Under the pieces are notes generated by a model, which saw nothing but the letters and a program-made list of their open reading frames with translations, searched no databases and had not been told where the DNA came from. A program made the position numbers and the translations under genes. DNA of 64,000 nucleotides from Antarcticibacterium flavum (GTDB taxonomy: Bacteria; Bacteroidota; Bacteroidia; Flavobacteriales; Flavobacteriaceae), in contig NZ_CP040812.1 in the NCBI RefSeq assembly GCF_006159205.1, positions 496,001-560,000 on the forward strand, in the 5' to 3' direction. This document shows, piece by piece, positions 898 to 60,936 of the stretch. How positions within the stretch are numbered: position 1 is the stretch's first letter; the number at the start of each line of letters is the position of its first letter.

Positions 898-996
898 TTT
901 TCTCTCTTCTCTCTTCTCTCTTCTCTTGTTTCTTGTTTCTTGTTTCTTGTTTCTTGTTTCTTGTTTCTTGCTTCTTGTTTCTTGTTTCTTGTTCTT
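898..996. repeat. Heptamer tracts (TCTCTTC)n then (TTTCTTG)n
   Basis: About three to four units of TCTCTTC are followed directly by about nine units of TTTCTTG with one variant unit (CTTCTTG). Both tracts have a strict 7-bp period. The tract ends just before the rny terminator. Confidence 0.9.
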
Positions 997-1012
997 TAAA
1001 AATAACATACTA

Positions 1013-1043
1013 AAAAAGCCTTTGATCAATTCAAAGGCTTTTT
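1013..1043 (-). terminator. Rho-independent terminator after rny
   Basis: A-rich and T-rich flanks surround a perfect stem, AAGCCTTTGA pairing with TCAAAGGCTT around a 4-nt loop. It lies 55 bp past the rny stop codon. The symmetric A and T tracts could let it work in both directions. Confidence 0.85.
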
Positions 1044-1097
1044 TAAGTATTTCTGAAGCCTGTTTAGTTAAGGATTCAGATGTGAAATTCTAAAAGA

Positions 1098-2668
1098 TTA
1101 CTTGGCTATGTTAACCGCTCTTGTTTCCCTTATTACTGTTACTTTAACCTGGCCGGGATAGGTCATATCTGTCTGGATCTTTTGAGAAATTTCAAAAGAA
1201 AGGTTTGCAGCCTTATCATCGGTTACCTTTTCACTTTCCACTATTACCCGCAGTTCCCTACCAGCCTGTATGGCATAGGCTTTCTTCACCCCGCCAAATC
1301 CAAAGGCGATATCCTCCAGGTCTTTAAGTCGCTGAATGTAGGAATCAAGCACCTGTCTTCTTGCACCGGGTCTTGCACCGCTTATGGCGTCACAAACCTG
1401 TACAATTGGAGATAACAGGGAATTCATTTCAATCTCATCGTGGTGAGCCCCTATGGCATTGCATACTTCAGGTTTTTCACCATACTTCTCTGCCCACTGC
1501 ATACCAAGTAGCGCGTGAGGCATTTCAGTCTCTGTATCCGGCACTTTTCCTATATCGTGTAGCAACCCTGCTCTTTTTGCCAGTTTTGGGTTTAAACCAA
1601 GTTCTGCCGCCATTACACCACATAGTTTTGCAACTTCCCTTGAGTGCTGTAGCAGGTTTTGCCCATAAGAAGAACGGTATTTCATTCTACCCACCGTCTT
1701 TATCAATTCTGGATGTAAACCATGAATCCCTAAGTCTATAACAGTACGTTTCCCTATATCTATGATCTCCTCATCGATTTGTTTCCTGGTCTTCTTAACC
1801 ACTTCTTCAATCCTGGCAGGATGAATCCTTCCATCGGTTACTAGCTTATGCAGGGATAATCTCGCAACTTCCCTACGAACCGTGTCAAAGCAGGAAAGAA
1901 TGATGGCCTCGGGGTGTCATCTACTATGATTTCCACACCGGTAGCAGCCTCAATTGCTCTAATGTTCCTTCCTTCCCTTCCAATGATCCTTCCTTTAACA
2001 TCATCGCTTTCAAGGTTAAAAACAGAAACGCAGTTATCTATGGCCTCTTCTGTACCTATACGTTGTATCGTATTGATGATCACCTTCCTTGCCTCCTGCT
2101 GGGCAGTTAATTTTGCTTCCTCAACCGTATCCTGGATCATAGACATCGCATCTGCCTTTGCAGTGTCCTTAAGGGATTCTATAAGTTGTGATTTTGCCTC
2201 CTCTGCAGAAAGGCCAGAAATAACTTCCAGTTGTTGCACCTTACTTGCATGAAGCTTGTCTACTTCCTGTTGTTTTTTCTCTAAATATTCATTCCTGTTA
2301 TCATAATCCTTGATCTTGTCTTCCAGGTCCTTATTAAGGTTCTTGTTCTTTGCTATTTCACTTGATACCTGGGATTCCTTATCGCGTATTCTCTTCTCTG
2401 CCTCGCCTATCTTCTTATCCCTTCCAAGGATCACCTTCTCGTGTTCAGCCTTAAGTTCTATGAATTTTTCCTTGGCCTGCAGGATCTTATCCTTCTTGAT
2501 GCTTTCTGCTTCGGTCTTCGCTTCCTTCAGGATCCCCGCAGCCGATTTCTTGGCCCGTTGTACCACTTTGGAGGCGTTATTCCTTTCGAGGACTTTTGCA
2601 ATTCCATATCCAATTGCGAGTCCCACGATAAGGGCAGAAATAATAATTATAATTGTAGTTGTTTCCAT
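1098..2668 (-). pseudogene. rny: Ribonuclease Y, reading frame broken by one apparent missing base
   Basis: Membrane-anchored endoribonuclease that starts mRNA decay. The N-terminal part (2668 down to about 1915) has one membrane helix (residues 4-25), a long Lys/Glu-rich coiled coil and a KH domain ([15 protein letters not shown]). It then leaves frame after [10 protein letters not shown]. The remainder (about 1910 down to 1098) continues in another frame with the HD domain (motif LLHDIGKV, then GAHHDE) to the normal C-terminus. Adding one C to the four-C run at 1911-1914 (minus strand) restores one protein of about 523 residues, the usual size. Both halves are otherwise well conserved, so sequencing or assembly error is more likely than true loss. 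It follows the coiled-coil gene, zapA and 6S RNA on the same strand. Confidence 0.9.
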
Positions 2669-2685
2669 ATAGTTAGATTAGATGT

Positions 2686-2853
2686 AAAAAAAAAGCCTGT
2701 ATTAGCTTCGATTTTGTATAAACTCCTTAAAAACAAGTATAGGGCTAACAAGCTGATCAAGTATCCGCTCAAAGACGGCTCGCTTTTACAACTTAAACTC
2801 ACCCTTTTTAAAGAATCCGTGTTGAGTTTATCAAAAAAATGACTAATACAGGC
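2686..2853 (-). ncRNA. ssrS: 6S RNA, flavobacterial type
   Basis: The 212-bp gap between zapA and rny has no ORF but a clear RNA signature. An 11-bp perfect closing helix joins GCCTGTATTAG (2695-2705) and CTAATACAGGC (2843-2853). Read on the minus strand, the 3' arm is followed by nine T residues, as in a terminated small RNA of about 165 nt. Complementary TGAGTTTA/TAAACTCA segments lie inside, giving a long rod with an open centre like 6S RNA, which binds RNA polymerase holoenzyme. Neighbourhood with zapA is also known for 6S RNA in proteobacteria. The assignment is from structure and context, not a covariance search. Confidence 0.75.
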
Positions 2854-2880
2854 AGTAAACCTTCTTTTATTTTAAAGAAC

Positions 2881-3174
2881 TTAAGTGGTTAAGTGTTGCT
2901 GCAGCAGTTCATTGAGGGATCTCAATTTCTCTTCTGCAAGTTCCACTTCACTTTGATTATCTATACTTTTTTGCTCGGTTTGGGCTGCAAACTGCAAGGC
3001 ACACATCGCCAGCACATCCTGCTTATCCCTAACGGCATAACTCTGCTCAAATTGCTTGATCATCGCCTCAATTTTTTTTGCAGCCTTACGAAGCCCTTCT
3101 TCCTGATGGGATTTTATGGTAAGGGGGTAAACCCTGTCTGCAATTGATAATTTTATTTTCAGCGAATCCGACAT
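2881..3174 (-). CDS. zapA: Cell division protein ZapA
   Basis: 97-residue protein that binds FtsZ and stabilises the Z-ring by bundling protofilaments. The N-terminal globular part (about 1-45, SLKIKLSIADRVYPLTI) and the C-terminal coiled coil (about 50-95, ending NELLQQHL) match the ZapA family in order and length. It starts 9 bp after the 96-residue coiled-coil gene, so both are probably cotranscribed, and 6S RNA and rny lie downstream on the same strand. Confidence 0.85.
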   Translation of the reverse strand: MSDSLKIKLSIADRVYPLTIKSHQEEGLRKAAKKIEAMIKQFEQSYAVRDKQDVLAMCALQFAAQTEQKSIDNQSEVELAEEKLRSLNELLQQHLTT

Positions 3175-3183
3175 TATTTTCTC

Positions 3184-3474
3184 CTATTCTGATAATTGAA
3201 CAATGCATTGATCAATTTCCCTTATTAAGCTGTTTATTTTGAGCTTTGTTTCTTTTTTGAAATCATTACTGCCTAGCATCGCGTTGGCTGCTTTAAGTGT
3301 TTGGACCTGGGACTGGGAACTTTCAATTTCCTGTATCAACCTGGTGTTATCATTTTTAACAGCTGTTAATTCCTCCTGTATAGAATGATGTTGTTGTCTA
3401 AGCACTTCATATTTGTGAAGTAACTTACTTATCCTATTTTCAAGATTATCAACTATTTCTGTCAATTCACTCAT
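3184..3474 (-). CDS. Small coiled-coil protein, possibly ZapB-like
   Basis: 96-residue soluble protein predicted as almost one continuous coiled coil (residues 3-75, LENRISKLLHKYEVL and later heptads). No enzyme motif, signal peptide or membrane helix. It lies directly upstream of zapA, where flavobacteria carry a short uncharacterised coiled-coil gene. A role as a ZapB-like Z-ring partner is inferred from shape and context only. Low sequence complexity makes homology weak evidence here. Confidence 0.7.
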   Translation of the reverse strand: MSELTEIVDNLENRISKLLHKYEVLRQQHHSIQEELTAVKNDNTRLIQEIESSQSQVQTLKAANAMLGSNDFKKETKLKINSLIREIDQCIVQLSE

Positions 3475-3501
3475 AAAAGCTCAACGTGCTACTTATTCAT
3501 A

Positions 3502-3532
3502 CAAAGTTAACATACCGCTTGAAATTTCCCAA
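3502..3532 (-). promoter_or_regulatory. Predicted promoter of the coiled-coil/zapA/6S/rny cluster
   Basis: On the minus strand TAACTTTG (3502-3509) fits the Bacteroidota -7 element TAnnTTTG. A TTG lies 20 bp upstream in the -33 position. The start codon of the first gene (3474) is about 28 bp downstream. Inferred from consensus only. Confidence 0.5.
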
Positions 3533-3653
3533 TACTTTTAAATCTATTTTCAAAATCTATGTAAATTCTTCTACCCCGCACATTACCAGGGCATTATTTT
3601 TGTACAAAAGTTTAATTATCTTTACCCACCCCAAAATTGCTATTACCAATTGT

Positions 3654-5345: not shown

Positions 5346-5736
5346 GTTTTTGAATACTGTATACTGTAGATTGTATAATGTAATGCTTAGCGGATGTGGT
5401 ACGGAATTTTAATATTGGCCGGATAGTACTTTTGAAATCAAACCGGATGGTTCACATATCCTAAATCAATTATTCCCGGCGGAAAAAGAAATTCGGCATC
5501 ATATAAAAAATGGCATTGCTCTACCATTTGTGGCCTTTTCCAATATTAACCAATACTAATTGCAGAAAGGGAGCAAATATATTCGTGAATTAGTGGTTTA
5601 TTCAGCAGACAAACAGAAAACAGAAAACGGAAAACGGAAAACAGAAAACGGAAAACAGAAAAAGGTAAACAGAAAACAATTTCCCCCGCCACTAATTTAC
5701 CTCCAGCCCCCAATTACAGTATACAGTATACAACAC
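5346..5736. other. Intergenic: heptamer tracts and a possible gene remnant
   Basis: Three parts. At 5355-5390 TACTGTA/GATTGTA/TAATGTA units repeat every 7 bp. At 5413-5559 an open stretch of 48 codons, preceded by TAA and with no start codon, reads like a protein tail (see findings). At 5612-5668 AAAACGG/AAAACAG units repeat every 7 bp, and two ACAGTAT units stand at about 5716-5733 just past the cysteine desulfurase stop. The short open frame over 5560-5760 is caused by the heptamers. Confidence 0.6.
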
Positions 5737-6885
5737 CTACGCTTCAACAAACTCCCTTAGCACCTCCACCACGTAATCTACCTCTTCCCGTGTGTTATAA
5801 TGGGACATAGAGAACCTCAAGGATGGTTTTTGAAGGTCTTCTTCAGGAAGGAAAGCACTTAACACGTGGGAACCCTTATCGCTCCCGCTCTGGCAGGCGC
5901 TACCTTTGGAACAGGCAATACCTTTTAGATCCAACTGGAACAAAAGCATAAGCGCTTTTTCCTGGGTGACCGGTAGACAAACATTGATTAAAGTGTAAGT
6001 ACTATTATCGGGATCTTCACATAGCCCATTAAACTTTACTCCCGGAATATTTTCTTTTAACTGCTCGATAAAATATCCTTTAAGCGAAGCTACATATTCC
6101 TTTTCCTCTTCCAGGTTACTATATGCTATTTTAAGCGCTTCTTCCAGGCCCACGATATTATGAACACTCTCTGTACCGGCACGTTGTCCCCGCTCCTGCT
6201 CCCCTCCAAAGATAAGAGGTTTAAGTCCGCTGTTCTTTCTCACAAAAGCAAATCCCACCCCTTTTGGTCCATGGAATTTATGGGCACTCACTGCTGTGAA
6301 ATCCACAGGCAAGGCTTGAAGGTCCAGTTTAAAATGGCCTATTGATTGTACTGTATCACAGTGAAATAGCGCATTATATTTTTTGCAAATTTGACCTGCC
6401 GCTTCAATATCCAGAATATTCCCAATTTCATTATTCACGTGCATTAAGCTCACCAGGGTTTTGGCTTCCGAATTTTGCAGTAGTTCCTCCAGATGGGACA
6501 ATTTCACCTGTCCCTTTTCATCAAGGCCTACATATTCCACCTCAACCTCAAAACATTTCTTTAATTGGTCTACGGTATAAAGAACGGCATGATGTTCTAT
6601 CCTTGAGGTGATGATCCTTTTTACACCCAGGTCTCGTATGGCCGAATTAAGAGCCAGGTTATCTGCCTCTGTACCTCCTGAAGTAAAAATAATTTCAGAA
6701 GCAGAAACATTTAAAATGCCGGCAACTGTCTTTCGGGCATTTTCAATTAAGGATTTAGATGACCTTCCATATGCATGTGTAGATGAAGGGTTTCCGTAAT
6801 TTTCTTTCATTACGGTAATCATTTTTTCAATGACTTCATCCCGCATTTGGGTGGTGGCAGCGCTGTCGAGGTATACTTTTTTCAT
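5737..6885 (-). CDS. Cysteine desulfurase, IscS/NifS type
   Basis: 382-residue PLP enzyme that takes sulfur from L-cysteine as an enzyme persulfide for Fe-S clusters or tRNA thiolation. The start at 6885 (MKKVYLDSAATTQ) is the conserved family start; three further in-frame codons upstream are less likely. PLP lysine about 203 in SAHKFHGPKG; the catalytic cysteine about 331 is in GSACQSG, the short-loop form of group I enzymes. It stands alone, not in an isc or suf operon, so the acceptor cannot be told from context. Confidence 0.92.
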   Translation of the reverse strand: MKKVYLDSAATTQMRDEVIEKMITVMKENYGNPSSTHAYGRSSKSLIENARKTVAGILNVSASEIIFTSGGTEADNLALNSAIRDLGVKRIITSRIEHHAVLYTVDQLKKCFEVEVEYVGLDEKGQVKLSHLEELLQNSEAKTLVSLMHVNNEIGNILDIEAAGQICKKYNALFHCDTVQSIGHFKLDLQALPVDFTAVSAHKFHGPKGVGFAFVRKNSGLKPLIFGGEQERGQRAGTESVHNIVGLEEALKIAYSNLEEEKEYVASLKGYFIEQLKENIPGVKFNGLCEDPDNSTYTLINVCLPVTQEKALMLLFQLDLKGIACSKGSACQSGSDKGSHVLSAFLPEEDLQKPSLRFSMSHYNTREEVDYVVEVLREFVEA

Positions 6886-6954
6886 GGGCAACAAAATTAA
6901 AATAATTTAAATTATTAGGTCGATGCTCTGCCATAAATTCTTAAAAGTTTATTT

Positions 6955-8016
6955 TTGTTGAAAATGATATCCATGAGAGCATTGCCCTTTATAGCCCTTT
7001 TGTTTTTTCTATTCGCTTCCTGTGATGACGGGGAGATCATCATTACTACTTTTGATTTCGAAGACCAGGCTTTTAGCGGTATGTGCAGCAATGAGAGAAA
7101 CAAGGTTCTCTATCACATCAACAACAGCAATGTATATGAAACCCTTTCCATCCAGATAAATAACTCTGGTTTGTCTGCAGATAATTCGAGGCTCATAAGT
7201 GGCCTACAAAGTTTACGAGTGCCGCTGGATAATGAACAAATTGCACCAATTAGGATCACACTGAGCGGGGCAAATGAAGTGATCTACCGTACTTATGACG
7301 GCGAAATACCCAATGATTATTTTTGCAGGGATGTGCCCCCCGCTTCCCCGCGTGTACTTCAGGAATACAGAAGCGTTGGCGGAGAGATCATTATATCCTC
7401 CTCGATTACATATAACCGGGTAAATAATCAGCTGGACCATGATGGTGACGGGATACCTTCAGCAGAAGAAGGGATGGCCACAAACCGCGATACAGATGGC
7501 GATGGGATCCCAGATTATCTTGATATTGACGATGACGGGGACAATGTGTTAACTTCAGAAGAGATAAGAATTGCAATAGGAGAAAATCCTACAGTTGATG
7601 GATTTTTGGATACAGATGGTGATGGGATACCAAATTACCTGGACCCTGATGATGATGGTGACGGCGTACCAACGCGCCTTGAAATCACCGGGGAGATACA
7701 GGAACCTCACCGGGTTTTTAATGAAGGCGGAAATTTGAGAAGGTATCTTGATCGCTTTACTGCTGAAAGATTCACCGGCGAGATAACTTTCAATATTGTG
7801 AACAACATCCCTGTACGTTATTCCTCTACCATTGAAGCAAGAAACCTGAAGCTAAGGAACCAGGGTGGTGACGGCGAGGAAATCTCTTTCACTGAAAAAA
7901 CTTTGGGTAGCTTCTCTCCCGGCGCTACCACCCCCACTCTTATTGTACCGGCCGGAACCGAAGAACCTGAAGAAGAAGAAGAAGAAGAAGAAGAAGAAAA
8001 TCCTGACGAAGGATAG
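6955..8016 (+). CDS. Lipoprotein with thrombospondin type 3-like Asp-rich repeats
   Basis: About 350 residues, exported and lipid-anchored: the N-terminal hydrophobic helix ends in a lipobox (LFASC). True start may be 6955 or an ATG a few codons later. Central residues about 160-230 hold at least three Asp-rich modules (DHDGDGIPS, DTDGDGIPDYLD, DTDGDGIPNYLD), the calcium-binding type found in thrombospondin and many flavobacterial surface proteins. The C-terminus has a run of ten Glu encoded by a GAA microsatellite (7969-7998) and ends NPDEG. Specific function unknown. Divergent from the cysteine desulfurase, convergent with the Smr gene. Confidence 0.85.
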   Translation: MLKMISMRALPFIALLFFLFASCDDGEIIITTFDFEDQAFSGMCSNERNKVLYHINNSNVYETLSIQINNSGLSADNSRLISGLQSLRVPLDNEQIAPIRITLSGANEVIYRTYDGEIPNDYFCRDVPPASPRVLQEYRSVGGEIIISSSITYNRVNNQLDHDGDGIPSAEEGMATNRDTDGDGIPDYLDIDDDGDNVLTSEEIRIAIGENPTVDGFLDTDGDGIPNYLDPDDDGDGVPTRLEITGEIQEPHRVFNEGGNLRRYLDRFTAERFTGEITFNIVNNIPVRYSSTIEARNLKLRNQGGDGEEISFTEKTLGSFSPGATTPTLIVPAGTEEPEEEEEEEEEENPDEG

Positions 8017-8018
8017 GA

Positions 8019-8570
8019 TCAGGAATTCTGAAAGAAATAGACTTCTGTAGCTCCTACACCGTATTTTTGATAGTCGGCGTCATAGAATTTTAAATTATCA
8101 TAACGGCCCAGCAGGAAATCGAGTTCAGCTTTAAGCACCCCTTCTCCTACTCCATGTATGAATACGATCTTTTGGATACGCTTTCGGGTGGCAAATTCTA
8201 TTTGTCGTTTCGCAGTATCCAGTTGCAGGGTTAGAATATCATAATTGCTCATCCCTCTATAAGAATTCACAAGTTTTTCTATGTGAAGATCTACTTCCAT
8301 AGGAGGGGCATTTCGCTCCTTTGGCTTGATACGTTGGGATCTTGGCTTCTTAGAACCTTGTTTCTCCCTTAGAACATCAGCAATTTTAACATCTGTAGTG
8401 GAGATAAGCCGGCTTTGCTCGTCATTTGTTCCCACCAGCTCATTCTCATGAAACTGAAGCATAAAACCTTCAGTTGTCTCAATGGTAATTTGATCTCCAT
8501 TAATGTCAATGACCTTACCCCTTAAGGCATCATCCAGCACCTCAACCTTATCATTGATCTTAAATTTCAT
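8019..8570 (-). CDS. Smr domain protein (MutS2-like C-terminal domain)
   Basis: 183 residues. The N-terminal part (1-60, VEVLDDALRGKVIDI) resembles the small beta domain found before Smr in Bacteroidota proteins. The C-terminal Smr domain (about 90-180) has the family signatures EVDLHIEKL and IVFIHGVGEGVL. Smr domains act as nucleases on DNA or RNA in recombination control or ribosome rescue; the stand-alone Bacteroidota form has no settled role. It overlaps the upstream 73-residue membrane protein by 11 bp, so the two are translationally coupled. Confidence 0.85.
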   Translation of the reverse strand: MKFKINDKVEVLDDALRGKVIDINGDQITIETTEGFMLQFHENELVGTNDEQSRLISTTDVKIADVLREKQGSKKPRSQRIKPKERNAPPMEVDLHIEKLVNSYRGMSNYDILTLQLDTAKRQIEFATRKRIQKIVFIHGVGEGVLKAELDFLLGRYDNLKFYDADYQKYGVGATEVYFFQNS

Positions 8571-8781: not shown

Positions 8782-8867
8782 AATTAACTGATTTTTAGCA
8801 ATTAAAATGTTTTTATTAGTAAAAACACTTTATCTATAGCCCTATCTTTAAAATGATAATTGGCAAT

Positions 8868-10604: not shown

Positions 10605-10619
10605 AAGAACGAAATTATC

Positions 10620-10904: not shown

Positions 10905-10919
10905 CCAAACCAACTCTTT

Positions 10920-11258: not shown

Positions 11259-11271
11259 TTAAAGCTATAAC

Positions 11272-30087: not shown

Positions 30088-30225
30088 AATAGGATCGCTG
30101 CGTAACAGTTGTCAGTTTTCGGTTAAAAAAGGTGGAAAGTGGAGAGTGGAAAGTTTGAGCGTAATTAAAAAAAGATCATCTCTTCGCAATATTTTTACCG
30201 GAAAGTACGCAAAGGTATACGCCGA
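30088..30225. repeat. Intergenic heptamer stretch and intron 3' exon
   Basis: At 30105-30160 TTGTCAG/TTTTCGG and GGAAAGT/GGAGAGT units repeat every 7 bp. After this comes an A-rich stretch and the sequence TACGCAAAGGTATACGCC, which is the exon flanking the 3' end of the group II intron. Confidence 0.75.
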
Positions 30226-30262
30226 GTAGGCAAAGGGGAGTTTCACCCCTAAGCCTCTCACA

Positions 30263-30296
30263 GAACCGTACGTGACAGTCTCCCGTCATACGGCTC
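30263..30296 (-). ncRNA. Group II intron domain V
   Basis: 34-nt hairpin that starts GAGCCGTATG and ends CACGTACGGTTC on the minus strand, the canonical size and pattern, with the AGC catalytic triad and a GAGA-type tetraloop region. It is the catalytic core of the intron ribozyme. Confidence 0.88.
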
Positions 30297-30313
30297 GTGT
30301 TATTCTTTATAAA

Positions 30314-31552
30314 TCAACAGTAACCAGTTTGCCAATGATAAAACAGGTTGGGTTTTAACTGTTTTATCTGTTTGAGCTTAATGATAGATTTTCCGGTGTT
30401 GATCTTGTATTTGTTTTTCATCCACTTGATCAGTCGTGAATCTACCTTTATTAGTGAGCGTCTTAGTTTATTTTTGCTGTATTTACTGTAATAGTTTATC
30501 CAACCTATAAGTTTCATATTGAGACTTTTGGCTATGTCCATTATATCCAACGTTGTGTTGTTCCATAACTTATTATCTCTAATAATCTCTCTAATCCGCT
30601 TTTGATTGGATTGACTGATTTCTGCTGTGAAGGCAGTATAAATTTGACCATCAAATTTTCCTATTCTCGCTCCTGGCTGATAGCTAAAGCCCAGAAATTC
30701 AAATTTGACCGTCTCGTGTTTTTCCTTCCGCTTGTAATCCTTACAGTAAGCGATGCGTGTTTTGGATTCGTTGACCTGTAGCTTTACTTCAGTCAGTCTT
30801 TGTTTGACTGCCTCAAGTACCATTTCCGCTTCTTCCTTGCTGTTGCAATGGATGACGATGTCATCTGCATACCTAACAAAGTTTACCTGAGGGTAGTGTT
30901 TGCTCAGCCACATATCAAGGGAGAAGTGTAGATACAGATTGGCAAGCAAAGGACTTATCACACCTCCCTGAGGTGTTCCTTTTCCTTCTTTTTGTTGCAG
31001 GGTGCCATCCTTCTTCTGGACAGGCATCTTTAACCATCTCTCTACATACAGTTTCACCCATTTTTCGTCCATAACGTGTTGGGTCGCTTTTAGCACCAAC
31101 TCGTGATCCATTTCATCAAAGAACTTACTGATGTCCATATCTATCACCCAGTCCTGCTTGAAGCAGTTCTGCCTGACCTGTTCAACGGCATCGTGTGCAC
31201 TCTTTAGTGGCCTGTAACCATACGAGTTGTCATGAAAGAGCCGGTCTATCCGCTTTTCCATATAATCCTTCAACACCTGTTGGGCTATTCTATCCTTAAG
31301 GGTTGGGATTCCTAATTTGCGCACCTTGCCGTCCTTTTTAGGTATCTCTACCTCTCGGACAGCCTGAGGGTGGTAACTGCCAGAGGCTAATCGGTTCCAG
31401 ATAACGTAGAGATTGCGCTCAGTTTGTTTATCAAACTCAACCCAGCTCTGGTTGTCTATCCCAACGGCTTTACCCCCTTTTTTCACCTTGCGGTAAGCTT
31501 TCACCACCTGTGAAAACTCAATTGGTACTGTTTTCTTTACGTGTACATTCAT
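30314..31552 (-). CDS. ltrA: Group II intron reverse transcriptase/maturase
   Basis: 412-residue intron-encoded protein. RT blocks: GIPTLKDRIAQQVL, YGYRPLKSAHDAV, catalytic Asp in WVIDMDISKFFDEMDH, GTPQGGVISPLLANLYL, and YADD at residues 228-231. The maturase (GIIM) domain covers about 325-390 (KLIGWINYYSKYSKNKLRR). No HNH endonuclease follows, so retrohoming would need an alternative primer, such as a replication fork strand. All catalytic residues are present. Encoded within intron domain IV. Confidence 0.93.
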   Translation of the reverse strand: MNVHVKKTVPIEFSQVVKAYRKVKKGGKAVGIDNQSWVEFDKQTERNLYVIWNRLASGSYHPQAVREVEIPKKDGKVRKLGIPTLKDRIAQQVLKDYMEKRIDRLFHDNSYGYRPLKSAHDAVEQVRQNCFKQDWVIDMDISKFFDEMDHELVLKATQHVMDEKWVKLYVERWLKMPVQKKDGTLQQKEGKGTPQGGVISPLLANLYLHFSLDMWLSKHYPQVNFVRYADDIVIHCNSKEEAEMVLEAVKQRLTEVKLQVNESKTRIAYCKDYKRKEKHETVKFEFLGFSYQPGARIGKFDGQIYTAFTAEISQSNQKRIREIIRDNKLWNNTTLDIMDIAKSLNMKLIGWINYYSKYSKNKLRRSLIKVDSRLIKWMKNKYKINTGKSIIKLKQIKQLKPNLFYHWQTGYC

Positions 31553-32082
31553 TTGTTAATCATCCCTTTTTATCGGTTGTAGTAGTGAACATTCAACTGA
31601 ATAACCCGAACCCTTCGCTCCTTCCTGCTTTCACAGGACATCATCACTACTATGGTTCGGTCCGACTTCCGTTTCCCTGCTCTTCACAGTTCCCTGAAAC
31701 GGAGATCCCGAGTTCCGTAATAAAGCCCGGATATAAGTCATGTCGCCTGTATAACGGTGGGCACACGGCCAGTAAATCAGGTTTCCGCCGTGCTTATCTC
31801 TGCATCCTCAGCATAATGCGATTTTGCCACACAACTATGCGATTTCGTTACTTCATCAGCGATTTATTTTCATTCATCTCTTATATCCATACCTGATGGA
31901 TTTGTTCCACCTTTTCCCTGAACGTTCACCACAGCGGCCTTACGGCTTTTGCAGCACAGGGTGGTTTGGCAACCCCGCCTGCACAGCGTTGCCGATACTT
32001 CGTTCTTATTGCTAAGAGTTGTATCATCTTTATTACAGCATGTTAAAGAACTTCAGCCGTCTTTAACTTCACGGCACAAGCA

Positions 32083-32268: not shown

Positions 32269-32477
32269 TGGTACTCCGTGCAAAACTCCCTAACTCCGTG
32301 GTTAAATTCAACTAGAATGGAGAAAATGAGAATCTTTCCTCTAAACAAACTCCAAACAACAAACACATAACGCTAAACAGCGAACAGAAAACGGTGAACA
32401 GAAAACAGTAAACAATTTCTCAAAAATTTGCCCTCCTTATTATTCCTATTCCCTCCTCAAAAGTTTATTTTTGCCCT
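32269..32477. other. Intergenic: A-rich heptamer stretch before rlmD
   Basis: From about 32355 to 32420 AACAGAA/AACGGTG/AACAGTA units repeat every 7 bp, the same family as 5612-5668 and 60826-60925. No gene or clear terminator. The rlmD promoter should lie in the last 60 bp but no exact consensus is visible. Confidence 0.6.
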
Positions 32478-38129: not shown

Positions 38130-38540
38130 GCAGGGAATGTGGATTTCGGAAACTGAAATCTAGGGTCTGGAGTCTGGAAGCTAGAGCCTAGACTTTTTAT
38201 TCCCTCTATACCCCCGCTTTATCCTTAGCCTCCCGGTTTGTCATCCTGTAAGGATCCCACGCCCAAGTGAGCGGGCAAGCGTAGTGGATGGTTATGGAGA
38301 ATGAGGATCCAAGAAACAAGAGAAGAGAGAAGAGAGAAGAGAAAAAACTTGGAGTCTAGAACCCGATGGCGCGGATTTGCAATCCGTGACGAGTACACCA
38401 CACCCGACGACTTGTACTTTCCAGTGTCCCCAATCCAATCCACCCCCCTGCCTTTGTCATCCTGCAAGAATCCCACGCCCGAGTGAGTGAACAAGAGTGG
38501 CCTGTTGTGGAGAGTCAGGAGACGAGGGCAAGCCCTGTTT
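38130..38540. repeat. Dispersed-repeat block downstream of rRNA operon, part 1
   Basis: Contains 7-bp periodic GTCTGGA and CTAGAGC units (38160-38190), a palindromic CATCCTGTAAGGATCCC element at about 38240 and its partner CATCCTGCAAGAATCCC at about 38458, an AGAGAAG heptamer tract (38316-38345), and the palindromic repeat CGGATTTGCAATCCG at about 38374-38388. No gene. Confidence 0.75.
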
Positions 38541-39085: not shown

Positions 39086-39172
39086 GAGATATTAGATCTT
39101 AGATGTTAGACTTGAGATTTAAAAAGTTTCCCTTTTATCTCACGTCTCATATCTGATATCTCACTTCTAATA
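39086..39172. repeat. Heptad hairpin in 23S-5S spacer
   Basis: Left arm made of AGATATT/AGATCTT/AGATGTT/AGACTTG units and right arm made of the reverse type, TCTCACG/TCTCATA/TCTGATA. Arms of about 33 nt can pair imperfectly around a loop rich in A and T. Same family as the hairpins at 42271, 42647 and 42731. Confidence 0.8.
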
Positions 39173-39282
39173 ACATAACATATAAGGAAATAAACAATAG
39201 AAGATATCATTGATATTTTAATAAAATAAAATGAGTACTAGGTTATCCTGTCCTCCTTCGCCCGAAGGCTCCGGAGGACGGG

Positions 39283-42122
<2,840 letters not shown>

Positions 42123-42270
42123 TTTTACCTAATATGCTCTTGTCACTATAAACAGCCGTGCAGCATGTCTATAGAAACGATTTTATTCTATTATTCTATC
42201 TACTTGTATTTCTACAAATTCGATTTTTCTCGTATTCTTTATTTCCCAATATGTCAATGAACGTTTTGTA

Positions 42271-42341
42271 GATTTGAGATCTTAGACGTGAGATATTAGA
42301 CAAATAAATGTCTCAAATCTCATATCTCAGGTCTCTTATCT
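42271..42341. repeat. Heptad hairpin between tRNA-Ala and 23S
   Basis: Left arm GATTTGAGATCTTAGACG and onward, right arm GTCTCAAATCTCATATCT and onward: about 31-nt arms, 7-bp periodic, pairing imperfectly around an AAATAAAT loop. Confidence 0.8.
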
Positions 42342-42345
42342 AACC

Positions 42346-42422
42346 TGGTGGAGAATATCGGAGTCGAACCGATGACCTCCTGCGTGCAAGGCAGGCGCTC
42401 TAGCCAGCTGAGCTAATCCCCC
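42346..42422 (-). tRNA. tRNA-Ala (anticodon TGC)
   Basis: 77 nt including an encoded CCA end. Acceptor GGGGGAT/ATTCTCC, anticodon loop CTTGCAC with TGC, T-loop GGTTCGACTCC. Part of the 16S-23S spacer of the operon. Confidence 0.96.
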
Positions 42423-42519
42423 ATTTTTTAAATTGAAATTCCAAAAAACCAAAATTCCAAATTCCAAAAAGGATAGGTATCCCAACTTCTAAAATTTCCT
42501 TTCAATACTTGTAATGAAC

Positions 42520-42562
42520 TTAATCCCCTTTTTTTACTCCCCCTTCGGGGGTTGGGGGGCCT
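42520..42562. repeat. G/C-run palindromic repeat between the two tRNAs
   Basis: ACTCCCCCTTCGGGGGTTGG with a following GGGGCC: a strong CCCCC/GGGGG hairpin with TTCG loop. A close relative stands at 56373-56412 (CCCCCTAACCCCCAAAGGGG). It is not a terminator in the sense of T-run, though it has T7 on one side. Confidence 0.75.
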
Positions 42563-42563
42563 G

Positions 42564-42637
42564 TAGTCTCAGGCAGACTCGAACTGCCGACCTCTACATT
42601 ATCAGTGTAGCGCTCTAACCAGCTGAGCTATGAGACT
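42564..42637 (-). tRNA. tRNA-Ile (anticodon GAT)
   Basis: 74 nt, acceptor AGTCTCA/TGAGACT, anticodon loop CTGATAA with GAT, T-arm CAGTTCGAGTCTG. The genome does not encode its CCA end (sequence after the discriminator A is CAGG), so a CCA-adding enzyme is needed. Confidence 0.96.
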
Positions 42638-42646
42638 GCAAATAGA

Positions 42647-42812
42647 TACTAGATTTTAGATCTGAGACTTGAGATTTCTTTTCATCCCTCTCTTTATCTC
42701 ACATCTCATATCTGATATCTCACATCTAATATTAGATCTTAGACTTTAGATTTTAGACGTGAGACTTATTCTCTCACTCATCTCATATCTCAAATCTAAT
42801 ATCTCATATCTT
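42647..42812. repeat. Two tandem heptad hairpins between 16S and tRNA-Ile
   Basis: First hairpin 42647-42731: arms of AGATTTT/AGATCTG/AGACTTG and their reverse type TCACATC/TCATATC. Second hairpin 42731-42812: AGATCTT/AGACTTT/AGATTTT/AGACGTG with ATCTCATATCTCAAATC. Both are 7-bp periodic. Confidence 0.8.
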
Positions 42813-48772: not shown

Positions 48773-48790
48773 ATTTATAATGTTACTGTC

Positions 48791-50362: not shown

Positions 50363-50410
50363 ATTCTAAGTTTTTTGTTCAACCTTTTACTATTAAAGGC
50401 TATGATATAC

Positions 50411-53170: not shown

Positions 53171-53349
53171 AAATCCAAGGTTGTTAATTGTTCTCACCGA
53201 ATATAATAAAATATTCATTGATTAACACTTTTTAACACCTGTTAGAGAAATTATTTCTAAAACCTGTATGTGATCGATATTTAAATTTGCTATCCCTCGC
53301 GAATCCAGGGAAGGTGATAATTAAGACCAAAGGAAAAACCAGTGAAATA

Positions 53350-53378
53350 AAAAAAGCTACCATAATGATAGCTTTTTC
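53350..53378 (-). terminator. Terminator after the 214-residue exported protein
   Basis: AAAAAGCTA pairs with TAGCTTTTT around CCATAATGA, T-run on the minus strand, 20 bp past the stop codon. Confidence 0.75.
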
Positions 53379-53396
53379 CAGAGAAGTTTATAAAAT

Positions 53397-54041: not shown

Positions 54042-54184
54042 AATAAATGGTTTAAAAATACTACAGGAAGAAAATATTTCTACCCAGTTCTCCTTCAAAG
54101 TAAAATTTTTGAATGTAATTAAGATAAATTACCTCAATTTATTCAACAAAATTCATACCGAATTACTTATTCCTATTATTTCTT

Positions 54185-56110: not shown

Positions 56111-56846
56111 TTCCTAAAAATAGAGAAAGAAGGTTTAATTGCAAAGGAAATTTCAGTTGTTGTCGGTTGTCGGTTGTCGGTTGTCGGTTGTCAGTTGTCA
56201 GTTGTTGTAGGTTGAAAAAAGTGGAGAGTGGAAAGTGGAGAGTGGATAATTGGATGCTGTAGGGGTTGGGCTTGCCCCTACCCGGAAGTTGGCAGTTGCG
56301 GTTGGCGGTTGTAGGTTTGTTAGTTGTAAGTTGTAGGTTGTAGGTTTTTTGCAAAAAGTGGAGAGTGGAGAGTCTGGACGCAGCCCCCTAACCCCCAAAG
56401 GGGGAACAAAAAATATAAATGCATTCGTGGCTAAAAATTTTAAGGTAACAGAAGACTGAAAAAAACTCCGGGCAACTCTGTGCCATACTCCAAGAACTCC
56501 GTGGTTAAAAAGCAATGAGGGAGCTATTCATTACCAAATTCCACATTTTTCCCCCGCACCACACCTAAAAAACTTTAGTGCATTCGTGGCTAAAAAGTTT
56601 GAAGAGGACAGAGGGCAGAGGACAGAGGACAGAAAAAAACTCCGTTTACTCCGTGCCGTACTCCCAATACTCCGTGGTTAAATAGCAACGAGTGAGCCAT
56701 ACACCAGGAATACAAACCAAAAAACATTCGTGCATTCGTGGCTAACCTCTTTAACACACGACAAACACAAAAACCGAGAACATCTAGCCACGAAAATCAA
56801 GTCTATGTTCTAGACTCCAGACTCTAGACTCCCTCTTTCACCCCAA
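56111..56846. repeat. Repeat-filled intergenic region between acs and purC
   Basis: 736 bp without a gene. In order: TTGTCGG/TTGTCAG heptamers (56157-56215), TTGAAAAAAG then GTGGAGA/GTGGAAA heptamers (56216-56250), a GGGCTTGCCCC palindrome (about 56268), TTGTAAG/TTGTAGG units (56319-56345), a CCCCC/GGGGG element (56373-56412), CATTCGTGGCTAA segments (56413, 56581, 56733), ACTCCGTGG segments (56500, 56676), an AGAGGAC heptamer tract (56604-56636) and TAGACTC units (56805-56832). Confidence 0.8.
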
Positions 56847-57803
56847 TTAACTTCTTTGTTCCAAATAACCAACCACATTCCTCTCAATCCTCTCCTCAAT
56901 ATTCGAAACATCTGCCTTTTCAAATTTGGAGCCGGTGATGTTTTCGTAGAGCTCGATATATCTTTCAGAAACTGTTTCTATGTACTCGTCACTCATCACG
57001 GGGACTGTTTGGCCCGGAAGGCCCTGGAAGTCATTTTGAATAAGCCACTGCCTTACGAATTCCTTGGAAAGTTGCTTCTGCGGTTCTCCCTGCCGCTGCC
57101 TTTCCTCATAACCCTTCATATAAAAATACCTGGAAGAATCGGGGGTGTGGATCTCGTCTATGAGGACGATCTTTCCATCGGCAGTTTTTCCGAATTCATA
57201 TTTTGTGTCAACCAGGATCAGCTCTCTTTCTGCAGCTATTTCAGTCCCGCGTTGGAAAAGCTTCCTTGTATAATCCTCCAGCACCTTATAATCTTCTTCA
57301 GACACAATTCCGCGGCCAATTATATCTTCACGGGAAATATCCTCGTCGTGGTCCCCCATTTCAGCCTTGGTGGCCGGGGTAATAATTGGCTCAGGAAAAG
57401 CATCGTTTTCTTTAAGTCCGTCCGGTAATGTCACGCCGCACAACTCCCTTTTCCCTGCTTTATATTCCCTGGCTGCATGGCCTGCCATATATCCACGAAT
57501 CACCATTTCCACTTTGAACGGCTCGCACTTGGCGCCCACTGCCACATTGGGATCTGGTGTTGCTTCCAGCCAGTTGGGAACTATATCGCTGGTGGCATCC
57601 ATCATTTTTGTGGCGATCTGGTTAAGGATCTGTCCTTTACATGGAATTCCTTTCGGCATCACCACGTCAAAGGCCGAAAGCCTGTCAGTCGCGATCATCA
57701 CCAGCAGATCATCCTCTAGTTCGTAGACTTCGCGCACCTTGCCTTTATAAACATTTTTTTGTCCGGGGAAATTATAATTGGTATTCGTAATGGTATTGGC
57801 CAT
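56847..57803 (-). CDS. purC: SAICAR synthase
   Basis: 318 residues, the longer form typical of Bacteroidota. Purine step joining CAIR and aspartate. N-terminal [31 protein letters not shown] and the ATP-grasp parts ([31 protein letters not shown]) with the Glu/Asp metal ligands. Downstream of phoH by 44 bp on the same strand. Confidence 0.95.
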
Positions 57804-57847
57804 AATATATTATTCTGCCTCTGCCTCTGGGGTTTGGCTGTATTTTT

Positions 57848-58816
57848 TTAAAAATTGGATTGTCCTTCTGCGTGTTCGATCTCTTTATATGCTGCAATGA
57901 TATTCTTCACCAGCTTATGGCGAATCACGTCCTTATCGTCCAGGTATACCATACCTATTCCATTGATGTCCTTGAGGACCAATAGAGCTTCTTTAAGACC
58001 CGAGGTAACTCTCCTTGGAAGGTCAATTTGGCCGGGGTCCCCGGTGATCATAAACTTCGCGCTTTTCCCCATACGGGTAAGGAACATTTTCATTTGGGCG
58101 TGGGTAGTATTCTGCGCCTCATCAAGGATCACAAATGCATTATCCAGCGTTCTTCCTCTCATAAATGCCAGTGGCGCGATCTGTATCACCTGCTTCTCGA
58201 TAAGCACCTCCAGCTTTTCGTGGGGGATCATATCCCTAAGCGCATCATACAACGGCTGCATATACGGGTCCAGTTTTTCCTTTAGGTCCCCCGGCAGGAA
58301 ACCAAGGTTCTCACCTGCTTCCACCGCAGGCCTGGTAAGAATGATTCTTTTCACCTGTTTTTCTTTCAAAGCTTTAACCGCCAGGGCTACACCGGTATAG
58401 GTTTTTCCTGTTCCTGCAGGGCCTATGGCAAAGACCATATCATTCTTGAACATAAGCTCCACCAGTTTACGCTGATTGGCGGTCTGGGCCTTTATGAGCT
58501 TGCCTCCTACCCCGTGAACCAGGACCTCCCCACTTTCAGCAGATGTGGAATAATCCTCTTTATTATCGCTGGTGAGCACCCGCTCAATGGTATTTTCATC
58601 GAGCTTGTTGAATTTTCCGAAGTGGTCCATAAGCATGGTAAAGCGCCTGTCAAATTCCTCCAGCATATCCTCATCGCCATACACCATAATTCTGGTACCG
58701 CGGGCTACGATCTTAAGCTTGGGGAAATACTTTTTTAGAAGTTCAATGTGTGCATTTTGATGCCCAAAAAATTCCCTTGGGCTAATTTCGGAAAGTTCGA
58801 TGATGAGTTCGTTCAA
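57848..58816 (-). CDS. PhoH-like ATPase
   Basis: 322 residues with Walker A AIGPAGTGKTYTGVALA (about 137), Walker B FVILDEAQNTTHAQMKMF and RPAVEAGENLGFLPGDLKEK. N-terminal segment about 1-110 carries the PhoH_N/KH-type RNA-binding region (KLKIVARGTRIMVYGDE). Role unsettled, linked to RNA metabolism; often next to ybeY/ybeZ but not here. Likely cotranscribed with purC. Confidence 0.92.
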   Translation of the reverse strand: MNELIIELSEISPREFFGHQNAHIELLKKYFPKLKIVARGTRIMVYGDEDMLEEFDRRFTMLMDHFGKFNKLDENTIERVLTSDNKEDYSTSAESGEVLVHGVGGKLIKAQTANQRKLVELMFKNDMVFAIGPAGTGKTYTGVALAVKALKEKQVKRIILTRPAVEAGENLGFLPGDLKEKLDPYMQPLYDALRDMIPHEKLEVLIEKQVIQIAPLAFMRGRTLDNAFVILDEAQNTTHAQMKMFLTRMGKSAKFMITGDPGQIDLPRRVTSGLKEALLVLKDINGIGMVYLDDKDVIRHKLVKNIIAAYKEIEHAEGQSNF

Positions 58817-59026
58817 AAGCTGTTGAGTTTAGTATTCATTTATACATTTCTTTAGAGAGAAAATTTGCTTTCCCCCGGTGCAGATCCTAATTTTGCACTT
58901 CAGGAAATTACAGAATTTTCTTTTAAATTTGACACAAGCTGGAAGAAATAAAATTATCTTCGCCCCTATTACAAACTTACATAAAAATTAAAGTTACAGC
59001 CCTTAAAAAATATTAACAATCCCCCT
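58817..59026. other. Divergent intergenic region phoH / SAM hydrolase
   Basis: 210 bp. A TTTG (about 58929) and a TATCTTCG (about 58954) on the plus strand are separated by more than the normal 19-20 bp, so no confident promoter is called. No repeats. Confidence 0.4.
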
Positions 59027-59890
59027 ATGGCAATAATCACTTTGACGACAGATTTTGGAGAGAAAGACCATTTTGCCGGAGCCGTTAAAGGGACTATTTA
59101 TTCTGAAATGAATGAGGTGCGAATTGTTGATATCTCCCATTCCATTTCGCCGTTTCATATTACCGAAGCATCTTACATTATCAAAAATGCATACAAGTGT
59201 TTTCCTGAAGGCACCATCCATATCATAGGTATAGACAGCGAACTTACCCCCGAGAATAAACATTTGGCGGTACTCCTTGACGGACATTATTTTATTTGTG
59301 CCAATAACGGGATCCTGTCCTTAATTGCTTCAGAAATTAAGCCTGAAAAGATCGTGGAGATCAACATCCACAATACCGTGGACACCAATTTCCCCGTGCT
59401 GGATGTATTTGTAAGAGTGGCCTGTCACCTCGCCCGTGGTGGAACGCTGGAGGTAGTGGGAAAAACCATTGAGAACCTCAAATACCTCAAGGAAGTTGAA
59501 CCCTATATCAATGCTGAAAAAGACCAGATCATAGGCCACGTTCTCTATATTGATAACTACGGAAACGTGGTAACTAATATTAACCGTAAACTCTTTGACA
59601 ATACCGGGAAAGGAAGGTCTTTTACCATCAAAGCGAGGACGGCGAAATTCACTGAAATTCATGAGACTTACAGCGACGCCATCAATTTTAAACTAGAGAA
59701 GGAAAAACGCGAAGAAGACGGAAAGAAACTGGCTATTTTCAATTCTGCCGGGTATATTGAACTGGCGATCTATAAAAGCAACCCCAGCACCGTAGGAAGT
59801 GCCTCCACCCTTTTCGGACTGGACCTACGGGATAGTATTACCATAAATTTTAATAAAGATGTTCGTACGAATAGTAAAGATGGGCTTTAA
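59027..59890 (+). CDS. SAM hydroxide adenosyltransferase (DUF62) family
   Basis: 287 residues. N-terminal TLTTDFGEKDHFAGAVKG is the hallmark of the SAM chlorinase/fluorinase/hydrolase family. ISHSISPFHITEASYII and the C-terminal beta barrel complete the fold. Such proteins mostly hydrolyse SAM to adenosine and methionine; halogenase activity is restricted to a few members with an extra loop that I do not see here. Overlaps the next gene by 32 bp. Confidence 0.9.
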   Translation: MAIITLTTDFGEKDHFAGAVKGTIYSEMNEVRIVDISHSISPFHITEASYIIKNAYKCFPEGTIHIIGIDSELTPENKHLAVLLDGHYFICANNGILSLIASEIKPEKIVEINIHNTVDTNFPVLDVFVRVACHLARGGTLEVVGKTIENLKYLKEVEPYINAEKDQIIGHVLYIDNYGNVVTNINRKLFDNTGKGRSFTIKARTAKFTEIHETYSDAINFKLEKEKREEDGKKLAIFNSAGYIELAIYKSNPSTVGSASTLFGLDLRDSITINFNKDVRTNSKDGL

Positions 59891-60155
59891 ACCGGAAGAG
59901 ATAGAAACCTTCCTGTCCAATTTTGACCAACATAAAGAAAAGATAAGAGGTTTCGAGGGATGTGAGTTCCTTGAACTTTACCGCGATAAGAACAATACCA
60001 ACCAGTTTTTTACGTATAGTTACTGGAAGGACGAAACCGCCCTGGAAAATTACCGAAATTCAAATCTTTTCAACGAGGTGTGGGCAGAAACGAAAGTAAT
60101 GTTCAACCAGAAGCCGGAAGCGTGGAGTGTGGATAAGGTGGTGAGTATCCCGTAG
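59859..60155 (+). CDS. Antibiotic biosynthesis monooxygenase domain protein
   Basis: 98 residues, ABM-type dimeric alpha/beta barrel fold: FVRIVKMGFKPEEIETFL, FEGCEFLELYRDKNNTNQFFTYSYWKDETALENYRNS. In such small proteins the role is often quinol or heme-related and not antibiotic synthesis. The start at 59859 overlaps the SAM hydrolase gene by 32 bp; an internal ATG at 59880 would overlap by 11 bp. Repeats begin right after the stop. Confidence 0.88.
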   Translation: MFVRIVKMGFKPEEIETFLSNFDQHKEKIRGFEGCEFLELYRDKNNTNQFFTYSYWKDETALENYRNSNLFNEVWAETKVMFNQKPEAWSVDKVVSIP

Positions 60156-60438
60156 GGTACGGGCTTGCCCGGATCCGGTTGTCGGTTGTCAGTTGTAGGT
60201 TGAAAACAGTGGAGAGTGGAAAGTGGAGAGAGGATAGTCAATGCGGGTTGTAAGTTGTAGGTTGTAGGTTGTAGGTTGAAAAAAGTGGAGAGTGGAAAGA
60301 GGAAAGTGGATAGTTGACGCGTGTTAAATGTTATAGGGTCTAGGTTGTAGGTTGTAGGTTGAAAATAGTGGAAAGTGGAGAGAGGATAGTCAATGCGTGA
60401 TGTAGGGGCCGGGCTTGCCCCGACCCGGAGGAAGGCAG
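60156..60438. repeat. Composite repeats downstream of the ABM gene
   Basis: Modules recur in the same order: a GGGCTTGCCC palindrome (60167), TTGTCGG/TTGTAGG heptamers, TTGAAAA, GTGGAGA/GTGGAAA heptamers, a short unique piece, then heptamers again (about 60178-60300 and 60342-60390). A second GGGCTTGCCCCGACCCGG palindrome stands at about 60411. The order copies that seen at 56157-56300. Confidence 0.8.
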
Positions 60439-60676
60439 TTGTAGGTTGTAGGTTGTAGGTTGTAGGTTGTAGGTTGTAGGTTGTAGGTTGTAGGTTGTAG
60501 GTTGTAGGTTGTAGGTTGTAGGTTGTAGGTTGTAGGTTGTAGGTTGTAGGTTGTAGGTTGTAGGTTGTAGGTTGTAGGTTGTAGGTTGTAGGTTGTAGGT
60601 TGTAGGTTGTAGGTTGTAGGTTGTAGGTTGTAGGTTGTAGGTTGTAGGTTGTAGGTTGTAGGTTGTAGGTTGTAGG
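60439..60676. repeat. 34 perfect copies of TTGTAGG (238 bp)
   Basis: Uninterrupted tandem array, 34 x 7 bp, no variation visible. It ends 260 bp before gldF. On the minus strand each of the three frames encodes the same heptapeptide cycle (NLQPTTY permutations), so long open frames here are artefacts. Confidence 0.97.
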
Positions 60677-60759
60677 TAAAAATAAAAAATTCTCCTGCAA
60701 TAGCCGAGCTTGACCCGATCATTTAAAGAATAATCTACCGCAACACAACAAAAAAAACA

Positions 60760-60936
60760 TTCGTGCATTCGTGGCTAACTTTTTTTCAGATAAAACTAAA
60801 ACAGAAAAAACATACAAAACGGTAAACAGAGAACAGAAAACAGTAAACAGTAAACAGTAAACGGAAAACACCAAACAACAAACCCCAAACACCAAACACC
60901 AAACACCAAACACCAAACCCTAAACAGTAAAAGCAC
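60760..60936. repeat. A-rich heptamers before gldF
   Basis: A CATTCGTGGCTAA segment, then AACAGAA/AACAGTA/AACGGAA and ACACCAA/ACCCTAA units (60826-60925) with 7-bp period, running right up to the gldF start codon. No promoter consensus is apparent in this stretch. Confidence 0.75.

Follow-up and report, generated by a model that had tools for sequence, protein, structure and literature searches.

Why should short tandem repeats built from unrelated words, lying between different genes, all advance by the same step? The question is raised by a 64,000-nucleotide (nt) stretch of Antarcticibacterium flavum (contig NZ_CP040812.1, positions 496,001 to 560,000, forward strand; "the window" below is this whole stretch), whose intergenic DNA carries tandem tracts of period 7, here called heptad tracts. 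A preliminary description had assigned period 7 to a series of these tracts, and the assignment holds: among lags of 4 to 11, the best lag is 7 in 14 of 14 listed intervals, with a lag-7 match of 0.50-1.00. None of 1000 letter shuffles reached that match in 13 of them, and in the weakest (30120-30160) it was equalled in 10 of 1000. Under a stricter threshold, the intergenic DNA of the window yields 12 tracts, all of period 7 or 14, and Tandem Repeats Finder agrees on period 7, including a perfect 34-copy GTTGTAG array at 60438-60677. The observation is thus confirmed as real, stronger than claimed, and extreme, with two caveats: the AGATCTT tracts of the ribosomal RNA (rRNA) spacers, arranged as inverted pairs, are degenerate, with a lag-7 match of 0.56-0.60, and the tract at 38316-38345 lies within a 128-aa open reading frame (ORF) that may be spurious. 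At roughly 0.5, we favor slippage during replication, with the core replicase preferring a step of 7 nt and dispersed repeats partly spreading or seeding the arrays.

The preference extends beyond the window. A genome sample covering 1.264 of the 4.35 Mb joined the window to 60 stretches of 20 kb taken at even spacing; a simple ORF-based gene-calling method left 700 intergenic segments (179 kb) in it. Among the 146 tandem tracts in these segments, 113 have period 7 and 25 have period 14; the 8 remaining tracts are spread over all other periods from 1 to 20, never more than one tract each. Dinucleotide shuffles of the segments produced 7 tracts, none of them with period 7 or 14, and in coding segments 5 tracts had period 7 and 2 had period 14, against 138 tracts of these periods in intergenic DNA. 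Autocorrelation peaks at 7, 14, 21, 28, 35 and 42. The autocorrelation and shuffle comparison that had been proposed as a genome-wide check bears directly on the period, and the excess at 7/14 is seen (138 of 146 tracts, none in shuffles). With the same detector, 100 kb of E. coli gave no tract, and a 200-kb archaeal plasmid, whose gene table is incomplete, gave a broad spectrum with 7 of 30 tracts at 7 or 14. The features of the window are as follows, with the means of detection in brackets.

471-502, plus strand: CCTGGTT-type words, a weak tract 5' of a GCCACGAATGCACGAATG copy, under the strict threshold (lag test, Tandem Repeats Finder).
729-761, plus strand: CCTGGTT/CTTGTTT words, period 7/14, 5' of a second GCCACGAATGCACGAATG-motif copy (strict threshold included).
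896-993, plus strand: TCTCTTC grading into TTTCTTG, period 7, 98 bp (lag test, Tandem Repeats Finder, strict threshold).
5611-5676, minus strand: GTTTTCT/GTTTTCC words, AAACAGA/AAACGGA on the plus strand (strict threshold included).
30120-30160, plus strand: degenerate AGTGGAG/AAGTGGA words, the weakest listed tract (lag test).
32375-32414, minus strand: GTTTACT/GTTTTCT-type words, absent from the earlier list (strict threshold included).
38316-38345, plus strand: AGAGAAG words, inside the 128-aa ORF (lag test, Tandem Repeats Finder).
39086-39172, no strand assigned: degenerate AGATNTT words, inverted pair, 23S-5S spacer (lag test).
42271-42341, no strand assigned: degenerate AGATNTT word class, inverted pair, tRNA-Ala to 23S spacer (lag test).
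42647-42812, no strand assigned: degenerate AGATNTT word class, 16S to tRNA-Ile spacer (lag test, strict threshold).
56157-56346, plus strand: GTTGTCG/GTTGTAG words, a GTTGAAAAAAGTGG linker, AGTGGAG words, the palindrome GTAGGGGTTGGGCTTGCCCCTAC, GTTGTAG words (strict threshold included).
56414-56742, minus strand: three GCCACGAATG-type motif copies in direct order, spaced 152-159 bp, with AGAGGAC (CTGTCCT) heptads at 56603-56633.
56805-56832, no strand assigned: TCTAGAC/TCCAGAC words (lag test).
60176-60390, plus strand: tandem modules of GTTGTAG words, a GTTGAAAA linker, AGTGGAG words and GATAGTC, period ~76-83 bp (Tandem Repeats Finder).
60438-60677, plus strand: perfect (GTTGTAG) array, 34.3 copies.
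60759-60775, minus strand: GCCACGAATGCACGAAT motif, 3' of the next array on the minus strand.
60817-60931, minus strand: GTTTACT grading into GTTTGGT words, AAACAGT/AAACACC on the plus strand (lag test, Tandem Repeats Finder).

The words vary far more than the step. When rotations and both strands are counted as one word, the perfect runs of 17 nt or more in the genome sample comprise 48 distinct heptamers, chief among them GTTGTAG, GTTGTCG, TTTCTTG, TTAGTCG, TTAGACG, TCTCTTC, GGAATTT, GTTTTCT, GTTTGGT, AGTGGAG and GAGTATT; set beside the 138 of 146 tracts at 7/14, this bears out the claim of one period with many unrelated words. Along arrays, words grade into each other with the 7-nt spacing unchanged, a drift that can be followed directly in the declining identity between units (0.89 at a separation of 1, 0.72 at 10) and that agrees with microsatellite growth by replication slippage.

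Placement between genes is also uneven. Convergent spacers hold 14.4 tracts per 10 kb, co-directional ones 7.7 and divergent ones 3.8 (p 9e-7), a directly observed gradient which argues against promoter function; the suggestion of selection for spacing finds no support in tracts that are rarest in divergent spacers. More generally, selection for a function such as regulatory spacing, G-quadruplex (G4) or hairpin formation, or protein binding might maintain the period, and such functions have been proposed in print for the G4 heptads of Xanthomonas and Nostoc (PMC4692102) and for TAACTGA of Beggiatoaceae (PMC4679880), in the passages of those papers concerned with heptads; the inverted pairs of the rRNA spacers would also suit it. 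Besides the low density in divergent spacers, several results make this improbable: hairpin propensity showed no consistent difference between words and letter-permuted words over four word sets, and the words of A. flavum fold no better or worse than permuted ones; orthologous spacers, described below, carry other words or no tract; and in the 1.264 Mb we found no tandem doublet of the G4-forming words GGGAATC, GGGGATT and GGGGACT (these variants only) and none of TAACTGA. In the rRNA operon (window 39086-42812), heptad tracts occupy all three internal spacers as inverted pairs, which could pair in the transcript.

Orientation links the tracts to replication. Cumulative G-C skew over the sampled stretches has its maximum near 0.29 Mb and its minimum near 2.25 Mb, taken here as the replichore borders. 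GTTGTAG x4 arrays, counted over the whole genome, lie 12+/2- in one replichore and 4+/10- in the other (Fisher 0.006; 0.015 after merging within 5 kb, 0.03 within 20 kb), and TTTCTTG arrays lie 16+/4- versus 2+/6- (p 0.011). By replichore, tract G-C skew is +0.148/-0.101 where the background is -0.048/+0.042, and tract T-A skew is +0.304/-0.005. The T-rich strand flips with replichore even in convergent spacers, in which transcription is symmetric (19:10 versus 5:11, p 0.03). The polarity thus rests on the long GTTGTAG and TTTCTTG arrays, in which it is directly seen, on bulk G-C skew, and on the orientation of a dispersed motif considered below.

Isolated exact two-copy duplications in A. flavum were counted against an expectation from first-order resampling. 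Outside tracts, 7-bp duplications number 71 versus 23.6 expected, and those of 4, 5 and 6 bp show no excess. In spacers without any 7-periodic tract, 7-bp pairs number 36 versus 18.6 (Poisson 2e-4) and 8-bp pairs 9 versus 4.8. Some of the 7-bp pairs may be remains of decayed arrays. The counts are 13 versus 11.4 in the congener G013 and 49 versus 15 overall in Portiera, the endosymbiont of Bemisia tabaci.

Portiera is also informative about which enzymes can be dispensed with. In strain BT-B (200 of 352 kb), period 7 or 14 accounts for 41 of the 69 intergenic tracts, followed by period 6 (11) and period 5 (5), and unit identity declines with distance from 0.89 to 0.57. Arrays in the Portiera stretches L232, L235, L236 and L240 switch word stepwise, with about three copies of each and the 7-nt spacing held, a record of growth with copying errors. 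Its words overlap those of A. flavum at chance (4 shared, null 3.7 from letter-permuted words); what the two have in common is the period, not the words, and a universal word set is not supported. The BT-B genome has no match to DNA_pol_A (DNA polymerase I), RVT_1 or Y1_Tnp, and its MutS1 is intact. According to the gene-loss account of PMC5322561, dnaQ, dnaX, dnaN, holA, holB, ruvC, ssb and mutL were lost on one branch, which we read from the text as the B. tabaci lineage of Portiera, and dnaE of these strains serves there as a marker gene. If those losses apply, the period-7 peak arises without need of RAYT, reverse transcriptase, DNA polymerase I, clamp, single-stranded DNA-binding protein (SSB), proofreading or MutL.

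These data bear directly on a dedicated enzyme, be it a RAYT, a reverse transcriptase or a telomerase-like writer, that would make the 7-nt repeats; what speaks for it is the uniform period together with 5 Y1_Tnp and 6 RVT_1 matches in the A. flavum genome, nothing further. We regard it as improbable, about as much so as selection for function. Since Portiera has the peak with neither family, neither RAYT nor reverse transcriptase is required; the congener G013 has heptads and no RVT_1 match, and G002, with 16 RVT_1 and 13 Y1_Tnp matches, has 1 period-7 tract in a 260-kb sample. At the 2 of 5 A. flavum Y1_Tnp loci inspected, the flanks carry other palindromic repeats, with no heptad tract within 1.5 kb; the search as a whole was limited to known families. 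A RAYT-like generator, as initially suggested, is therefore not supported. The two inspected loci look like RAYTs with REP clusters of their own: at L130 (4359-5500) both flanks of the Y1_Tnp gene hold many copies of AAGCCCTGAAAGGGCG and GCAGCCCCTCG, and at L154 (15298-16050) CCCCGGCGGGGCG / GGCGCTCCTC-type repeats stand on one side of the second. Mismatch-repair loss was likewise considered for A. flavum and rejected, because its MutS1 is intact (890.8 bits).

The strongest competitor to pure in-place slippage comes from dispersed repeats beside the tracts. The GCCACGAATGCACGAATG motif, GCCAC(G/T)AATGCAC(G/T)AATG, has 26 intergenic copies in the genome sample; a heptad tract ends at most 60 bp 5' of it in 22 of 26 copies and 3' in 3 of 26, compared with 4.3% for random positions. 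The copies are not independent, 10 of 26 falling in one block (L143), and counted by spacer, 10 of 11 have a tract 5'. They recur in direct order 145-264 bp apart, and their orientation follows replichore (4+/18- versus 18+/6-, p 1e-4; 0.026 when merged within 5 kb). A palindrome, GTAGGGG-TTGGGCTTG-CCCCTAC, has 10 intergenic matches, of which 7 have a tract no more than 60 bp downstream and 3 have one upstream; beside GTTGT arrays, GTAGGGG...CCCCTAC is palindromic and the heptads lie outside the palindrome. Over the three motif families tested, 50 of 138 tracts fall within 100 bp of a copy, whereas random placement puts 8.6 there on average and 21 at most. Given this neighborhood of tracts and motifs, dispersed repeats may have carried some of the heptad DNA along as they spread, or may have seeded it.

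At L143, positions 6398-8301 form a non-coding block of ten motif-headed tandem modules of 170, 176 and 238 bp with a 584-bp higher-order repeat, each module carrying TTTCTTG/TCTCTTC/TCTAGAC heptads. Inverted GCCACGAATGCACGAAT pairs about 40 bp apart at G002:C1:1310212-1310271, with similar ones in G008 and G011, resemble a small hairpin element. Nostoc reportedly has small dispersed repeats embedded in heptameric repeats (Elhai 2008), a case that our short motif close to heptad arrays resembles by description.

Carried to its end, this neighborhood suggests composite mobile repeats: a copy-and-paste element with a heptad part beside the GCCACGAATGCACGAATG motif or the palindrome, the heptads being its inherited, mutated tail. 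The 5' tracts (22 of 26 copies, 10 of 11 spacers), the 50 of 138 tracts near motifs, the 145-264 bp tandem modules and an orientation that follows replichore, as for elements inserting at the fork, all fit. We nevertheless think such elements unlikely as the whole account, if the main rival to in-place slippage, and both can act together. One block holds 10 of the 26 copies, words vary between copies, and 88 of 138 tracts lie away from motifs. The exact 17-nt form occurs in 11 of 39 relatives (35 copies in G008, 32 in G011), and the congeners G003 and G013 have heptads with no exact copy, whereas G002 has 13 copies and few heptads. Mobile repeats would also leave unexplained both the Portiera period and the two-copy excess of tract-free spacers.

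Turnover between species is seen directly within the genus. In congener samples of 260 to 420 kb each, period-7/14 tracts per 10 kb of spacer number 2.0 in G003, 1.0 in G013 and 0.23 in G002, compared with 7.7 in A. flavum, and tracts at 7/14 make up 5 of 5, 8 of 13 and 1 of 2, respectively. The spacer upstream of the gene at window position 60937, compared at 12 loci, holds at least a few hundred bases of heptad DNA in A. flavum, G008 and G003, with differing words; 8 of 12 loci have no tract and 1 of 12 a single short one. In G013, mutS is split and the gene at C1:278866 is also broken by stops and frame changes, probably the mark of an indel-rich assembly. An assembly or sequencing artefact might be entertained for A. 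flavum itself, a single-contig assembly whose tandem repeats are error-prone; with independent genomes of the genus carrying tracts at the same spacer and elsewhere, and at least 116 stretches in other bacteria, we hold it to be highly improbable.

Those stretches come from a scan of genome contigs for GGTTGTA x4, which returned at least 116 with bacterial titles for all among the matches listed. These stretches, taken whole with their coding DNA, hold 200 further tracts, 110 of them with period 7 or 14 (3 stretches are Portiera). The set shares 9 words with A. flavum (null 4.4, maximum 9), although it was retrieved by one word (excluded from the count) and includes Bacteroidota; its 21 words shared with Portiera (null 8.9) are unusable since 3 loci are Portiera. 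We chose four bacteria for their GTTGTAG arrays and profiled them at stretches away from the matches: Symploca had 15 of its 22 tracts at period 7 or 14, a parcubacterium 3 of 4 and a planctomycete both of its 2, and 60 kb of Flavobacterium antarcticum had no tract. In the Saprospiraceae stretches L016, L022, L055 and L062, period-8 arrays (AGCAAATC, GGTGACAA, AGTCGTAC) rival period 7. Virus-borne arrays were considered and rejected, as 2.9 million viral contigs gave GGTTGTA x3 in 2 stretches and the GCCACGAATGCACGAATG motif in 0. In the listed phylum medians of PMC4060949, 7n3 repeats stand at 0.75 for Bacteroidetes, 1.00 for Chloroflexi, 0.50 for Verrucomicrobia, 1.00 for Deferribacteres and 2.00 for Planctomycetes and at zero in both archaeal phyla listed; the same source reports an excess of 6-11 bp repeats in three archaea. 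With one archaeal plasmid profiled, and the GGTTGTA x4 stretches all bacterial among the matches listed, we do not claim archaeal absence as proof for DnaE.

Taken at its most economical, the favored reading runs as follows. The tracts would be intergenic heptanucleotide microsatellites arising from replication-coupled tandem duplication with a strong preference for a 7-nt step, and the step would be set by a minimal core of the replication machinery, most economically the DnaE polymerase and its hold on the primer-template. The word would be any local sequence that happened to be duplicated first; point mutation would then make words drift as the 7-nt spacing stays. Tracts would survive where they do least harm, in convergent spacers, and turn over between species, and some would lie within or next to short dispersed repeats by which they are copied or seeded. 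The role given to DnaE is our inference. A stronger form, possible but doubtful in our view, would give DnaE, the bacterial C-family replicase, an intrinsic 7-nt slip that is strand-polar at the fork and independent of clamp, clamp loader, SSB, proofreading, MutL, DNA polymerase I, transposase and reverse transcriptase, writing heptad spacers in Bacteroidota, Cyanobacteria, Patescibacteria, Planctomycetota and endosymbionts. The preliminary description had judged that slippage alone would not be expected to fix one period and had inferred a common generator; the common generator stands, and the dismissal of slippage was premature, because polymerase-set 7-nt slippage, as proposed in 2007, fits the data.

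Several results weigh against slippage by a replicase-set step. Outside tracts, 8-bp duplications are also in excess in A. flavum (18 versus 7.2 expected). Two heptad-poor congeners that share this type of replicase have 7-bp pairs at expectation (12 versus 11.1), and the load therefore takes more than the replicase to explain; in tract-free spacers of Portiera, the excess is gone (6 versus 4.1). Recurrent linkers and the motif association show that slippage in place accounts for only part of the picture. The TTTCTTG polarity weakens to p 0.16 on merging, and an orientation permutation test over all words of the genome sample was negative (532/2000). Other periods account for 90 of the 200 further tracts in the GGTTGTA x4 stretches, led by 8 (29), 9 (15) and 16 (10), and Portiera has its 11 tracts of period 6. 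Host proteins may be imported into Portiera, and the archaeal control is a single plasmid.

Why heptamers lead among the longer bacterial microsatellites has been an open question since 2007. It can now be put to the test, because in A. flavum 7 is nearly the sole period and the genus includes both rich and poor sister species. Comparison with Portiera shifts attention from repeat-writing enzymes of any sort towards a minimal replication core, and replichore polarity links the process to the fork. If it is true that DnaE slips by 7 nt, this would bear on the evolution of spacer DNA, strain-typing loci and phase-variable switches in many bacteria.

Two further features of the window deserve mention. 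A group II intron (Rfam, minus strand, 30221-32005) contains a 412-aa reverse transcriptase ORF, of which the genome has four RVT_1 copies of equal score, and a 6S-Flavo RNA lies on the minus strand at 2720-2827.

How do the tracts compare with known systems? Our search of the open-licence literature, in which the motif itself was not a term, found no publication on the Portiera period-7 peak, the replichore polarity of heptads or the dispersed motif. Heptad cases have been described in Xanthomonas and Nostoc (PMC4692102), Beggiatoaceae (PMC4679880) and Geobacter, in the portions of the literature cited here. Mrázek, Guo and Shah (2007), as quoted in PMC4692102 and PMC4679880, found heptamers over-represented among long simple repeats in many bacteria and proposed that 7 nt is the stretch contacting the polymerase, so that the slippage step is polymerase-set. 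Our tracts agree with theirs in having 7-nt tandem units beyond chance and mainly in non-coding DNA (138 versus 7), and differ in that 7/14 is near-exclusive; strand polarity, two-copy excess and dispersed neighbors are not mentioned in the quoted accounts.

Like the cyanobacterial heptads (the STRR of Calothrix and the G-rich repeats of Nostoc, in the account of PMC4692102), the tracts are intergenic arrays of variable words; unlike the Nostoc G-rich heptads, they lack GGGGATT and GGGGACT doublets, and the Calothrix STRR is likened by description. The TAACTGA repeats of Beggiatoaceae, Cyanobacteria and some Bacteroidetes are, in the parts of PMC4679880 describing them, also intergenic, with other heptamers intermixed in some Bacteroidetes; they consist of one word, often just upstream of start codons, whereas here the words are many and divergent spacers are poorest. 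REP/REPIN elements with their RAYTs, as outlined in PMC3116915, share with our tracts short extragenic repeats, tandem clusters with flanks and, possibly, the palindrome beside some tracts; they differ in that 2 of 5 Y1 loci inspected carry other palindromes and heptads also occur where Y1 transposases are absent. Short tandem repeats have likewise proliferated in the spacers of Portiera, by the accounts in PMC5322561 and PMC7821994, which in the sections concerned leave the period unnamed; the period-7 peak emerges in the present analysis. Unlike A. flavum, Portiera is a reduced endosymbiont that has lost many replication genes. The phenomenon is thus of a known kind, and A. flavum is an extreme case of it.

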